In this document: piece after piece, positions 53,142 through 59,179 of the stretch
Layout: every line of letters begins with the position of its first letter
Numbering within the stretch: position 1 is the first letter of the stretch
Assembly (NCBI GenBank): GCA_020851415.1
Contig: JADZCU010000062.1
Span: forward strand, 1-59,179
Length of the DNA: 59,179 nt
Reading direction: 5' to 3'
DNA from: Candidatus Peregrinibacteria bacterium
GTDB taxonomy: Bacteria > Patescibacteriota > Gracilibacteria > UBA1369
Program-made: the position numbers and the translations under genes
Notes under the pieces: model-generated
The model's input: only the letters and a program-made list of their open reading frames with translations
The model's database searches: none
What the model was told of the DNA's origin: nothing

Positions 53142-54551
53142 ATGGGTTTTTTAAAACTTGCTTCTCGCGCCGAACCGGTTGGACTGGAGGTTACTCCAGA
53201 GCTGATTTTTGCGCGCCTACGTGGGGAATATAGTTTTTTGCTGAGGACAGGGCAGACCGGTGAGGGTGCGATGGGACAGGGGGATAGATACTCCTTTTTG
53301 GGCTATAATCCGGCGTTTGTTGTGTGGTCGCAGGAACAGGTTTTGCATTTGGAGCGCTTGAGGCAGACGAGTTGTTTGGCAAAGGGGCCGCGGAATGAGA
53401 TGCTGCAGGGTGACTCTTTTGAAGCGCTGAGGAAATTGGTTTTGGATTACGGGTTTACCAGCAAGGCCCCGGTTCCTTTTTTTGGTGGGTTTGCCGGACT
53501 TTTTACTTATGATTATGGATGTAATTTTGTGGGTGTGAAGCAGACGGTTTTTGATGATTATAAGCTTCCGGAGTTTGTATTCGCTTTTTACGACAAGGTG
53601 ATTTGTTTTGATCATCAAGAGCAGAAGGTTTGGTATTTGGCTTTGGGGGATACAGCTATGGAGGCGGAGCGGGTGCTGGATCAGATTCTTTTGGATGTGC
53701 AAAAGCCGGCGGCGCTTCGAGGTGTTGGGTCGGTGGGTGAGTTGTCCTCCAATTTGAGTAAGGAACAGTATGCGATGAAAATTGATCAGTTGAAAAAATA
53801 TTTGCAACAAGGGGATACGTACCAGGCAAATTTTTCTCAACGGTTCTCAGCTGACTCCGATGCTGATTCCTGGAAGATTTTTTTGAAATTGTCGAAAATT
53901 ACACCGGCTCCATTTGCAAGTTATTTTGAGTTTCCGGATTTTTCCGTGGTGAGTTGCTCTCCGGAACTTTTGGTGCGAAAGCGTGGAAAGGTTGTTGAGA
54001 CTTGGCCGATTAAGGGGACAATGCCTCGTGGAAAAAATAGCGGCGAGGATGAGAGGTTGGCCGCTCGGCTTTTGAATTCGGACAAGAATGAAGCGGAACT
54101 GAATATGATTGTGGATCTGGAGCGGAACGATTTGGGGAAAGTGTGTGAGATGGGTTCTGTGAAAGTTGCGGCGCATCGTGAGATACAGAAATACTCACAT
54201 GTGATTCACACTGTGTCCAAGGTGACTGGGATGCTCCGTTCTGACAGTGATATTTTCGATTTGATTCAAGCTTTATTCCCTGGGGGATCGATTACTGGCG
54301 CACCTAAAAAAAGAACAATGGAAATTATTGATCAGTTGGAGGATTTTAAGAGGGGTGTGTATACCGGATCGGCGGGCTATATGAGTTTGAATGGTGATAT
54401 GGATTTTAATATTTTGATTCGGACATTGTTGTTTAAGGATAGGAAGGTGTATTTCAATAGTGGAGGGGGAATTGTGATTGGGTCGAATGCGGAAGAAGAG
54501 TATTTGGAGTCATTGCAGAAAGCTGAGTCTTTGAGGTTGGCTTTGCAATAG
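53142..54551 (+). CDS. pabB: Aminodeoxychorismate synthase component I
   Basis: A 469-residue chorismate-utilising enzyme. It aminates chorismate to 4-amino-4-deoxychorismate in pABA and folate synthesis. The motif PIKGTMPRG, with Lys in place of the Ala of anthranilate synthase, marks PabB. FPGGSITGAPKKRTMEIIDQ and GVYTGSAGYMS complete the active site. No glutaminase (pabA) gene is in the window; ammonia or a PabA from elsewhere may serve. pabC-type and folP genes lie downstream, supporting the folate role. Confidence 0.93.
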   Translation: MGFLKLASRAEPVGLEVTPELIFARLRGEYSFLLRTGQTGEGAMGQGDRYSFLGYNPAFVVWSQEQVLHLERLRQTSCLAKGPRNEMLQGDSFEALRKLVLDYGFTSKAPVPFFGGFAGLFTYDYGCNFVGVKQTVFDDYKLPEFVFAFYDKVICFDHQEQKVWYLALGDTAMEAERVLDQILLDVQKPAALRGVGSVGELSSNLSKEQYAMKIDQLKKYLQQGDTYQANFSQRFSADSDADSWKIFLKLSKITPAPFASYFEFPDFSVVSCSPELLVRKRGKVVETWPIKGTMPRGKNSGEDERLAARLLNSDKNEAELNMIVDLERNDLGKVCEMGSVKVAAHREIQKYSHVIHTVSKVTGMLRSDSDIFDLIQALFPGGSITGAPKKRTMEIIDQLEDFKRGVYTGSAGYMSLNGDMDFNILIRTLLFKDRKVYFNSGGGIVIGSNAEEEYLESLQKAESLRLALQ

Positions 54552-55337: not shown

Positions 55338-56171
55338 ATGTATGTTTGTTTGAACGGAAAATTAGTGAAGGAGAGGGAGGCACGCGTGTCAGTTTTTGAT
55401 CATGGGTTTTTGTATGGGGACGGGGTGTATGAAACTTTGCGAACGTATGGTGGAAAGGTTTGGCAGTTGCGGGAGCATTTGAAGAGATTGCGGGGGTCGG
55501 CGAGGTTGTTACAGATTGGAGTGCCTTGGAGTGATGGGCAGGTGAGCAACTGGTTGGAGGCGCTTTTGGAAAAAAATGGTTTTCGGGAGTCGCGGATCCG
55601 TATTTCGGTGAGTCGAGGTGAAAATGGGTTTGATTTTACGATGAGTAAGAAACCGACGTTGGTTATTGTGGCTTCGAAATTGGTTCCGGAACCGGTTGAG
55701 GTTTATACCAAGGGGGTGAGTTTGATTTCATTGCCTTGGCAGAGATTTTTACCGCATGCGAAAACAACAAGTTTGTTGCCAATGATTTTGGCACAGCCTT
55801 TGTTGAAGCAGAAAAAAGCTTATGAAGGGATTTTTTTGGATGAAAAGAAGAATGTTTTGGAAGGGACTATGACAAATATAACAGCGGTTTTTGGAAATAC
55901 TTTGATTGCACCAAAGGACGGTGTTTTGTCTGGGGAGACACAAAAAACTGTTTTACAGATCGCGAAAAAGTGTGGCTTGACGGTGAAGTGGGGAAAATTA
56001 TCTTTAAAGAAATTACTTCAGGCTGATGAGGTTTTTCTTACCAGTACTGTTCGGGAAATTATGCCGGTGAGGATGGTGGATGGGAAAAAAATTGGAAGGG
56101 TCTGCCCGGGCAGTCTTACCAAGTTGTTGATGAGTGCTTTTGAGGAGTATGTGATGAGGGATTGGATGTAG
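55338..56171 (+). CDS. pabC: Class IV aminotransferase-fold enzyme, probable aminodeoxychorismate lyase
   Basis: A 277-residue PLP enzyme. The start YVCLNGKLVKEREARVSVFDHGFLYGDGVYETLRTY is the class IV pattern. The Schiff-base Lys is in LPHAKTTSLLPMILA, and the PLP-phosphate region is LEGTMTNITAVF. TSTVREIMPVRMVDG closes the active site. The family includes PabC, branched-chain aminotransferase and D-amino-acid aminotransferase. The position between pabB and folP favours PabC, which makes pABA from aminodeoxychorismate. Confidence 0.85.
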   Translation: MYVCLNGKLVKEREARVSVFDHGFLYGDGVYETLRTYGGKVWQLREHLKRLRGSARLLQIGVPWSDGQVSNWLEALLEKNGFRESRIRISVSRGENGFDFTMSKKPTLVIVASKLVPEPVEVYTKGVSLISLPWQRFLPHAKTTSLLPMILAQPLLKQKKAYEGIFLDEKKNVLEGTMTNITAVFGNTLIAPKDGVLSGETQKTVLQIAKKCGLTVKWGKLSLKKLLQADEVFLTSTVREIMPVRMVDGKKIGRVCPGSLTKLLMSAFEEYVMRDWM

Positions 56172-56245: not shown

Positions 56246-57091
56246 ATGCATAAATTTTTGGTGAGTCGGGGGAAGAAATTGAGTTTGGGGCGCCCGCTTA
56301 TTATGGGGGTGCTGAATGTAACGCCCGACTCGTTTTCTGATGGTGGAAAGTTTTTGGATCTCAATCAGGCGGTGAAGCGGGCGCTTACGATGGTTCAAGA
56401 GGGTGCGGATATTATTGATATTGGAGGGGAGTCTTCGGGGCCGGATTCTCAGAATGTTTCTTTGAAAGAGGAGTTAGCGAGGGTGATTCCCGTGGTGCGT
56501 ATGTTACGCGCACAAACGACTGCGTGGGTGTCCGTGGACACTTACAAGGCCGAAGTTGCGCGTTCTGCCATAGAGGCTGGGGCTGATATGATCAATGATG
56601 TGACCGCGTTTCGCGGCGATAAGCAGATGGCTTCTGTGGTTGCGGCTGCTGGGGTGCCGGTGGTGATTATGTATTCCAAGGATTCTTCGGCACGAACTAC
56701 TCGGAAAGTTGTTAAGTATAAGAATGTTGTCAGTTTTGTGCAGAAGTTTTTGAAGGAACGCGTTGCGGTTGGTATGAAGGCCGGCATTTTGAAGGGACAG
56801 TTTATACTGGATCCAGGAATGGGGGCTTTTGTTAGCGGTGAGCCAAAATATAGTTTGCAGATTTTGAAGAAACTGGAAAAGTTTGGAGATATGGGCTTGC
56901 CGATTTTGATTGGAGCTTCGAGGAAAGGGTTTATCGGGCAGGTGCTTGGCGTTTCATTGGATGAACGGCTTGAAGGCGGGTTGGCGGCTCATGCGCTTGC
57001 GGTTTTGCATGGCGCTGCTATTATTCGGACCCATGATGTGAAGGAGACGAGGCGCGTTGTGGATATGGTGAGTGCCATTTTGAAATCATAA
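56246..57091 (+). CDS. folP: Dihydropteroate synthase
   Basis: A 281-residue TIM-barrel enzyme that joins pABA to 6-hydroxymethyl-dihydropterin pyrophosphate. MGVLNVTPDSFSDGGKF, DIIDIGGESSGPD, VSVDTYKAEVA, INDVTAF and GASRKGFIG are all visible. The loop is GGESSGPDS rather than the usual GGESTRPG, so the Arg often found there is missing. It follows the pabC gene by 74 bp. This enzyme is the sulfonamide target. Confidence 0.95.
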   Translation: MHKFLVSRGKKLSLGRPLIMGVLNVTPDSFSDGGKFLDLNQAVKRALTMVQEGADIIDIGGESSGPDSQNVSLKEELARVIPVVRMLRAQTTAWVSVDTYKAEVARSAIEAGADMINDVTAFRGDKQMASVVAAAGVPVVIMYSKDSSARTTRKVVKYKNVVSFVQKFLKERVAVGMKAGILKGQFILDPGMGAFVSGEPKYSLQILKKLEKFGDMGLPILIGASRKGFIGQVLGVSLDERLEGGLAAHALAVLHGAAIIRTHDVKETRRVVDMVSAILKS

Positions 57092-57162: not shown

Positions 57163-57684
57163 TCACTGTTTCTCTAGTTTAAAGCCAATTTGTGTTTTTT
57201 GTTTTTCTTCTGGGGATAATAACTGTTTTATAAGTTTGAAAATCGTTTTAAATTGTCCGTCGTATTTTTGTTCCAGCTTTTCTATTTTTTCTCGTAATAC
57301 TTTGTTTGTTGTCAGCATCTCGCGTAATTTGGTAAAAGTTCTCATAATCTGAATATTCACCTGGATTGCCCGTTCGCTTTTTAACACACTGGATAGCATG
57401 GCGATGCCTTGTTCAGTAAAAACATAAGGCAGGTATCTTCGACCACCCCATACATTTGAGGTGCCAAAATGGAACCTCAAGTTTTCGAATTCTTCTTTCT
57501 TGAGAATAAACATGAAATCTTCTGGAAATCGTTCAATATTTCTTTTTACAGCTCTAATCAGGTTTTTGGTTTCTACTCCATAAAGTGCAGCCAAATCATT
57601 GTCCATTATTACTTTTTTGCCTCTTAAGAAAAATATTTTGGCTTCAATCCTTTCATCAGGAATAACAATGTTAGGTGATTGCAT
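57163..57684 (-). CDS. ORF6N-domain protein (phage-type)
   Basis: A 173-residue protein. The N-terminal ORF6N domain (RIEAKIFFLRGKKVIMDNDLAALYGVETKNLIRAVKRN..RFPEDFMF, about 9-95) is found in phage and mobile-element proteins. It is followed by YVFTEQGIAMLSSVLKSERAIQVNIQIMRTF and a coiled-coil tail. Presumed DNA-binding. It is inserted on the opposite strand between folP and the PTPS gene. Confidence 0.92.
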   Translation of the reverse strand: MQSPNIVIPDERIEAKIFFLRGKKVIMDNDLAALYGVETKNLIRAVKRNIERFPEDFMFILKKEEFENLRFHFGTSNVWGGRRYLPYVFTEQGIAMLSSVLKSERAIQVNIQIMRTFTKLREMLTTNKVLREKIEKLEQKYDGQFKTIFKLIKQLLSPEEKQKTQIGFKLEKQ

Positions 57685-57896
57685 GGTTACATAAGAATGT
57701 AATAAGTATTCTATTTTACCTTTTTGAAATTAAATTTTTGTTAACACATTCTGAAATATTCATAAAACTTGTCGATAAGATACAAAGTTGTTAGTGTTTA
57801 TGACGGTGAGGGGCTTCCATTTTGTGCGTGCATGATGTAGAAGAGACAAGGTTAGTGATGGAGATGGTTCACGTTATTATGACTTCATGATTTGTT

Positions 57897-58346
57897 ATGT
57901 TCGTTACCAAAATTTTCACTTTTGATTCAGCACATTTTTTGACGAACTATTATGGGAAGTGTGAGCGTATGCATGGGCATACGTATACTTTGGAAGTGAC
58001 CCTTGAAGGGGATGTTCAGAGTAATGGGTTGATTATTGATTTTGTGGTTTTGAAGCGGATTGTGAAGAAACATGTGTTGGATAAACTGGATCATCAGACT
58101 TTGAATGATGTGATTGAAAATCCTTCTGCGGAAAGGGTTGTTTTGTGGATATGGGATCAGTTGAAAGATTTGCCAAAATTATTGGAGGCGGAGCAGGATG
58201 ATCCGAATTTGGGTGAGGATATTCAGAAGTATTTTAAGGCGGAGGATGGGAAGGATTTTCAGAAGATGGATTTTGGTAAAACTCTTCGGCTTCATGAGTT
58301 GAAACTTTGGGAGACGGCGACGAGTTGTGTTGTGTATCGGGGGTAA
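57897..58346 (+). CDS. 6-pyruvoyl-tetrahydropterin synthase family, PTPS-III type (FolB replacement)
   Basis: A 149-residue enzyme of the PTPS/QueD fold. Zinc ligands are His13 (DSAHF) and His26 and His28 (HGH); LDHQTLND supplies the catalytic Asp-His region; the end is SCVVYRG. The active-site motif reads Cys22-Glu23-Arg-Met-His-Gly-His. In PTPS-III enzymes a glutamate replaces or accompanies the catalytic Cys and the product is 6-hydroxymethyl-dihydropterin, bypassing FolB; QueD has Cys without this Glu. With pabB, pabC, folP and folK around it and no folB visible, the PTPS-III role is likely. An insertion (QDDPNLGEDIQKYFK) near the C-terminus is unusual. Confidence 0.88.
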   Translation: MFVTKIFTFDSAHFLTNYYGKCERMHGHTYTLEVTLEGDVQSNGLIIDFVVLKRIVKKHVLDKLDHQTLNDVIENPSAERVVLWIWDQLKDLPKLLEAEQDDPNLGEDIQKYFKAEDGKDFQKMDFGKTLRLHELKLWETATSCVVYRG

Positions 58347-58484: not shown

Positions 58485-59000
58485 ATGCCATTTGGTCATA
58501 AAGAGTCCGCACCGAGACGATCTAAAAGAGCTTCTACCATTGAAGATTTGGAGGCTCAGGTTCATGCAGAGCAACAGAAAGCGGCTGAAGAGGAAAAAAC
58601 TGAAGGTCAAACTGTTTTTAGAAAGATTTTTTCCTGGGTTTCGAAAATGGCGGGTAAGGCTATGGATACCAGCACTGAACTTGGTTTACCGGCCGGTGTT
58701 TCTTTGGATGATTATAAGACGATCAAGTGTATGTATGAGAAGATTTTGGATGCGAAACGTGGTGGAAAAATTGTGAAAGGGAAAGACTGGATGCGTATTG
58801 TAGAAGATAATCCTGAAGATAAATCTTTCGAAGAAATTTGGGAGGATAGTAGTCATGGTAAAAGTATGGATACGAGAACCGACATAGTGGAGTTTTTACT
58901 TGAACGGTATTTGCCACATGCTATGGCTGACGAGATGATGGGACGCCAAATTCGTACATTCTTTTTAATGGATTTGGGCATAATTCCATATTTGGCGTAA
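58485..59000 (+). CDS. Hypothetical protein
   Basis: A 171-residue soluble protein. The N-terminus is basic and likely disordered (PRRSKRAS), followed by a charged helix (IEDLEAQVHAEQQKAAEEEKT). The rest is a globular helical part (VSLDDYKTIKCMYEKILDAKRGG, DIVEFLLERYLPHAMADEMMG). No known family. It is 3 bp from folK and shares its promoter. Confidence 0.65.
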   Translation: MPFGHKESAPRRSKRASTIEDLEAQVHAEQQKAAEEEKTEGQTVFRKIFSWVSKMAGKAMDTSTELGLPAGVSLDDYKTIKCMYEKILDAKRGGKIVKGKDWMRIVEDNPEDKSFEEIWEDSSHGKSMDTRTDIVEFLLERYLPHAMADEMMGRQIRTFFLMDLGIIPYLA

Positions 59001-59003
59001 CAT

Positions 59004-59179
59004 ATGGCCATGCATAGAGTGTATTTGGCTTTTGGGTCTAATCTTGGTGAGAGAGGAAAAAATATTCAGACGGCTGTGACTGATTTGGAGCGTTGGGGCA
59101 TTAAGATTTTACGGATGTCCCGCTTGTATGAAACTGAACCGGTTGGGGTTAAGGATCAGCCGGCTTTTTATAATGCGGC
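59004..59179 (+). CDS. folK: 6-hydroxymethyl-dihydropterin pyrophosphokinase, start (partial)
   Basis: 58 residues before the window ends. RVYLAFGSNLGERGKNIQ and SRLYETEPVGVKDQPAFYNA match the first conserved blocks of HPPK (GSNLGDR..N and S..YETEPVG..DQPxFxN). It activates 6-hydroxymethyl-dihydropterin with ATP for FolP. Two in-frame ATGs lie at 59004 and 59010. Confidence 0.92.
   Translation, partial: MAMHRVYLAFGSNLGERGKNIQTAVTDLERWGIKILRMSRLYETEPVGVKDQPAFYNA

Follow-up and report, generated by a model that had tools for sequence, protein, structure and literature searches.

Results

The window analyzed here is the whole 59,179-nucleotide stretch of contig JADZCU010000062.1 (assembly GCA_020851415.1, forward strand) from a Candidatus Peregrinibacteria bacterium. 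Towards its end lies a group of folate genes around a PTPS gene, with pabB, a pabC-type gene, and folP upstream and folK downstream. The features are as follows.

53142..54551, forward strand: pabB, aminodeoxychorismate synthase component I (TIGR00553, 341 bits; cut-off, 328.4)
55338..56171, forward strand: pabC-type gene, class IV aminotransferase, lyase or transaminase (PF01063, 179 bits; below every NCBIfam cut-off)
56246..57091, forward strand: folP, dihydropteroate synthase (TIGR01496, 306 bits; cut-off, 162.6)
57163..57684, reverse strand: ORF6N-domain gene, outside the pathway, between the intact folP and the PTPS gene (PF10543, 118.7 bits)
57810..57890, forward strand: in-frame relic of the 3' end of a second folP, just 5' of the PTPS gene (by alignment with the point where the folP tail meets PTPS in G009, the nearest relative)
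57897..58346, forward strand: PTPS/COG0720 gene, predicted PTPS-I/III hybrid, 149 aa, ATG start (profile matches and AlphaFold model)
57960..57980, forward strand: active-site motif C22-E23-R-M-H26-G-H28 (CExxHGH) within the PTPS gene, read from the sequence and invariant in 45/45 relatives
59004..59179, forward strand: 5' part of folK, truncated at the contig end (HPPK match at 59022-59177; the rest is on contig C52)

A preliminary description of this locus had placed the PTPS gene among pabB, a pabC-type gene, folP, and folK, and the profile matches bear this out. The HPPK match at 59022-59177 covers the first 49 of 116 HPPK positions, and the window ends where the contig ends; its final stretch (59053-59179) is the reverse complement of C52 over exactly 127 nt, and C52 continues folK, its portion of the gene scoring 130.5 bits against TIGR01498. 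This overlap marks an assembly break inside folK and allows the two contigs to be treated as adjacent. Between the PTPS gene and folK there is a 171-aa open reading frame (58485-59000) with no Pfam or NCBIfam match. Because the folP relic matches the folP-PTPS junction of G009, an insertion or a duplication appears to have split a formerly compact operon (window 57163-57896).

The 149-aa product belongs to the COG0720/PTPS family by both profile and fold: it matched PF01242 with 107 bits (E value, 7e-31), and its AlphaFold model (pLDDT, 87) superposed on E. coli QueD with a TM-score of 0.90 on the target and an rmsd of 1.6 Å, the Plasmodium PTPS being a weaker structural match. The protein also scored 100.1 bits against the NCBIfam QueD model TIGR03367, above its cut-off of 89.25. 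An insertion of approximately 25 to 35 aa (residues ~95-128; window 58179-58280), present in some relatives and absent from others, precedes the C-terminal strands and was modeled with lower confidence.

The Cys-Glu-x-x-His-Gly-His active site given in the preliminary description is indeed encoded by the open reading frame at 57897-58346, where it reads KCERMHGH (C22, 57960-57962; E23, 57963-57965; H26-G-H28, 57972-57980). C22 aligned with the Cys of KCGRLHGH in E. coli QueD, and E23 aligned with the Glu of EDVHGH in P. horikoshii PH0634. The published signatures are CxxxHGH for QueD, ExxHGH for PTPS-III, and CxxxxxHGH for PTPS-II (PMC5041015). Both the QueD (PTPS-I) signature, in KCERMHGH, and the PTPS-III signature, in E23-R-M-HGH, are present; the PTPS-II signature is absent, the sole Cys near the motif having CxxxHGH spacing. 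PTPS-III in the strict sense, as in P. falciparum, lacks the QueD catalytic Cys, which is retained here as Cys22. All 45 PTPS proteins from 59 related genomes carry CExxHGH; its occurrence in this gene is therefore not due to chance. Residues H13, H26, H28, D65, H66, and E139 are likewise invariant among the 45.

As proposed in the preliminary description, the genome (1.42 Mb in 81 contigs, 95% complete) was searched for folB, folE, and queCEF. A family search of the 81-contig assembly found one PTPS, and the FolB profile had no match in this 95% complete genome. FolE (a single copy, on contig C60), folK, folP, and DHFR are all present. On a separate 15-kb contig of the same assembly, C80, queE, queC, and queF form an operon that lacks queD; the genome also encodes Tgt and QueA. 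The C80 QueC and QueF-II proteins scored above curated cut-offs; its QueE matched several QueE models below cut-off and has the radical-SAM motif CxxxCxxC. Two sets of low-scoring matches were discounted by score: those to QueC below ~40 bits, which were taken to be other ATP-binding proteins, and those to QueF, which coincide with folE loci. The assembly thus combines folE, folK, and folP without folB, and queC, queE, and queF without another queD, which is the gene content described for PTPS-I/III hybrids; a folB gene or a second queD may lie in the missing part of this 95% complete genome. The substrate of QueE is 6-carboxytetrahydropterin, which is made by QueD; therefore, with one PTPS only, that PTPS must supply it if the C80 operon works.

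The comparison set comprised 59 genomes of the same order, including the present one. PTPS was found in 45, folE in 44, folK in 46, and folB in 1. PTPS and folE occurred together in 43 genomes, with PTPS alone in 2 and folE alone in 1, and the sole folE-positive genome without PTPS (G016) is the sole folB genome. Fisher p-values for gene co-occurrence serve as description only, because they take no account of the common ancestry of these related, nonindependent genomes. In a sample of 145 genomes from the phylum, each at least 80% complete, PTPS was found in 9 and folB in 5, and the two were never found together. The suggestion that folate synthesis is uncommon in these bacteria thus holds for the phylum but not for the order, where it is normal (folK in 46/59).

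Folate genes lay inside the fetched PTPS flanks in 41 of the 45 relatives, many of which have the order folP-PTPS-folK-folE. In sister lineages (L161-L163 and L165), folK comes after folB, in most cases together with folE (folB-folK-folE), so that PTPS occupies the slot of the sister-lineage folB. This exchange within one operon slot is a nonorthologous replacement and is the strongest evidence for a folate role. In another relative, G001 (L181; G001:C1, 1112-2019), a divergent PTPS adjoins folE without folK and queC.

A true QueC was found in 14 of the 59 genomes, every one of which has exactly one PTPS and no folB; no queD belonging to the que loci themselves was found in the loci examined among these queC-positive relatives. 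Four genomes (G026, G051, G056, and G044) have a single cluster, folP-ptps-folK-queF-queE-queC, around their only PTPS. All 31 PTPS-bearing relatives that lack queC also have Cys22 (mean pairwise identity, 54%), so the CExxHGH motif is not enough to establish QueD function in this protein. Nor is the motif by itself proof of folate function, since CExxHGH also occurs beside que genes with no folate genes nearby, in archaea (L094, L113, and L115) and in Parabacteroides (L150). In the three archaeal loci, two of them labeled Altiarchaeota, the CExxHGH proteins directly adjoin queC and queE. Reference QueD proteins from que operons mostly lack the motif Glu, and elsewhere in the phylum a PTPS without it (CRNLHGH, in G183) is grouped with folE, queE, and queC.

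The QueC of this genome is 46 to 56% identical to family f15 proteins, 32 to 39% identical to others, and approximately 50% identical to that of Sinorhizobium, whereas PTPS identity is more even across the order (39 to 73%), which hints that the queCEF genes may have more than one origin. In a tree of 133 sequences over 119 columns, with 50 unresolved forks, the PTPS protein was placed among the CExxHGH proteins; 8 of 11 QueD references split from this set (SH-aLRT, 95), and 3 long-branched references did not. The preliminary description had named a folB gene together with queCEF, and placement within the QueD clade, as findings that would speak against it: queCEF was found, folB was absent, and the protein lay apart from those eight references.

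Discussion

In this study, we have described a PTPS gene that probably encodes a dual-function PTPS-I/III enzyme filling both the FolB and the QueD roles; we infer both activities, as well as the roles of the active-site residues. CExxHGH PTPS-I/III hybrids act in both pathways (PMC5041015). In the proposed scheme, FolE would provide 7,8-dihydroneopterin triphosphate, and the PTPS, with Glu23 as the putative catalytic base, would shorten the side chain to give 6-hydroxymethyl-7,8-dihydropterin, which FolK, FolP, and DHFR would carry towards tetrahydrofolate; this would make FolB dispensable. Cys22 would be the catalytic residue in a second reaction of this protein, giving 6-carboxy-5,6,7,8-tetrahydropterin, which QueE, QueC, QueF, Tgt, and QueA would take towards the tRNA base queuosine. 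A 6-hydroxymethyl-dihydropterin synthase and a 6-carboxytetrahydropterin synthase would thus be combined in one 149-aa protein. Since the genome has a single PTPS and a queE-queC-queF operon without queD, the PTPS should also supply QueD activity.

The proposal that this enzyme stands in for FolB has held up well: FolB is absent, the single PTPS lies in a folate cluster, and folB and PTPS exclude one another in both the 59-genome and the 145-genome sets. On this genomic evidence, replacement of FolB by PTPS is a well-supported prediction. The label PTPS-III given in the preliminary description is appropriate to the Glu of ExxHGH but is incomplete, since Cys22, queE-queC-queF, tgt, and queA are better accommodated by a PTPS-I/III hybrid. 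It may be argued that folate synthesis is the sole function of the enzyme and that the queCEF operon does not work, is a contaminant, or depends on an undetected QueD. The que genes and the PTPS gene lie on different contigs, and 31 of the 45 relatives carry the same enzyme without queC, mostly in a folate context, which makes folate the general role. However, the genome has intact copies of queE, queC, and queF together with tgt and queA, none of the 14 queC-positive genomes has a second PTPS, and the QueD Cys is retained; we regard this reading as unlikely, and filing the protein as a strict PTPS-III was rejected on the grounds of Cys22 and the presence of queCEF in the genome.

The converse, an enzyme that serves queuosine alone, with its adjacency to folP incidental and some other enzyme replacing FolB, would agree with the score above the NCBIfam QueD equivalog cut-off and with E. 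coli QueD as the nearest fold. It is very improbable given that PTPS is kept in 31 relatives without queC, mostly alongside folate genes, that PTPS and folB are mutually exclusive in the same operon slot, that the motif Glu is invariant, and that 8 of 11 canonical QueD references stand apart from the CExxHGH set in the 119-column tree, which, with its 50 unresolved forks, counts as weak support. QueD function alone was therefore rejected on the folate context, the mutual exclusion with folB, and the relatives without queC. A PTPS-II type biopterin enzyme (6-pyruvoyltetrahydropterin synthase) belongs to the same superfamily, and its name is used in older annotation, but the spacing of its signature (CxxxxxHGH; PMC5041015) differs from the CxxxHGH spacing here and the context is one of folate genes, so that we give this assignment almost no credence.

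The conservation of Cys22 in relatives without queC calls for explanation: either the Cys aids the folate reaction in this clade, or there have been many recent losses of queCEF, or the residue has another use. A tentative view, which we consider possible but rather doubtful, is that in the folate PTPS of this order the Cys is under selection without queuosine genes and acts in the folate reaction, and that a latent QueD activity let queD-less queCEF sets plug in, possibly repeatedly. The need for the Cys in the folate reaction is now directly testable. Formation of 6-hydroxymethyl-dihydropterin by the malarial enzyme requires Glu38; a Glu38Cys substitution abolished it and left only the other pterin product (PMC2229834).

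These data provide a clean genomic case of one enzyme serving for two, FolB and QueD, in an uncultured lineage with reduced genomes. They also indicate that the published CExxHGH signature is by itself no predictor of queuosine synthesis, since many relatives keep the Cys without queC, and they correct an automatic annotation that would name the gene QueD and score folate synthesis as incomplete. The enzyme class has already been described; what is new is a member from a candidate-phylum lineage. We found no description of PTPS-I/III or of queuosine synthesis in Peregrinibacteria in the part of the literature covered, which is weak evidence.

The present system resembles the PTPS-I/III hybrids of COG0720 in its CExxHGH motif, single PTPS, lack of folB, que genes, and folate operon context; it differs in its host, a Peregrinibacteria-type candidate-phylum bacterium, and in the insertion of approximately 25 to 35 aa in this protein and some relatives. 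With PTPS-III, that is, the P. falciparum PTPS and the bacterial folate PTPS proteins, it shares the Glu of ExxHGH, the lack of FolB, and the folate context; however, in the malarial enzyme Glu replaces Cys, whereas the present protein has both, with queCEF in the genome. Its fold, zinc-binding histidines, CxxxHGH Cys spacing, and conserved Asp-His and Glu are those of E. coli QueD (PTPS-I), in which Gly rather than Glu follows the Cys and whose host has folB. FolB (dihydroneopterin aldolase) has the same operon slot, adjoining folK, in sister lineages and the same product as that predicted here, but it belongs to a separate protein family whose profile has no match in this genome.
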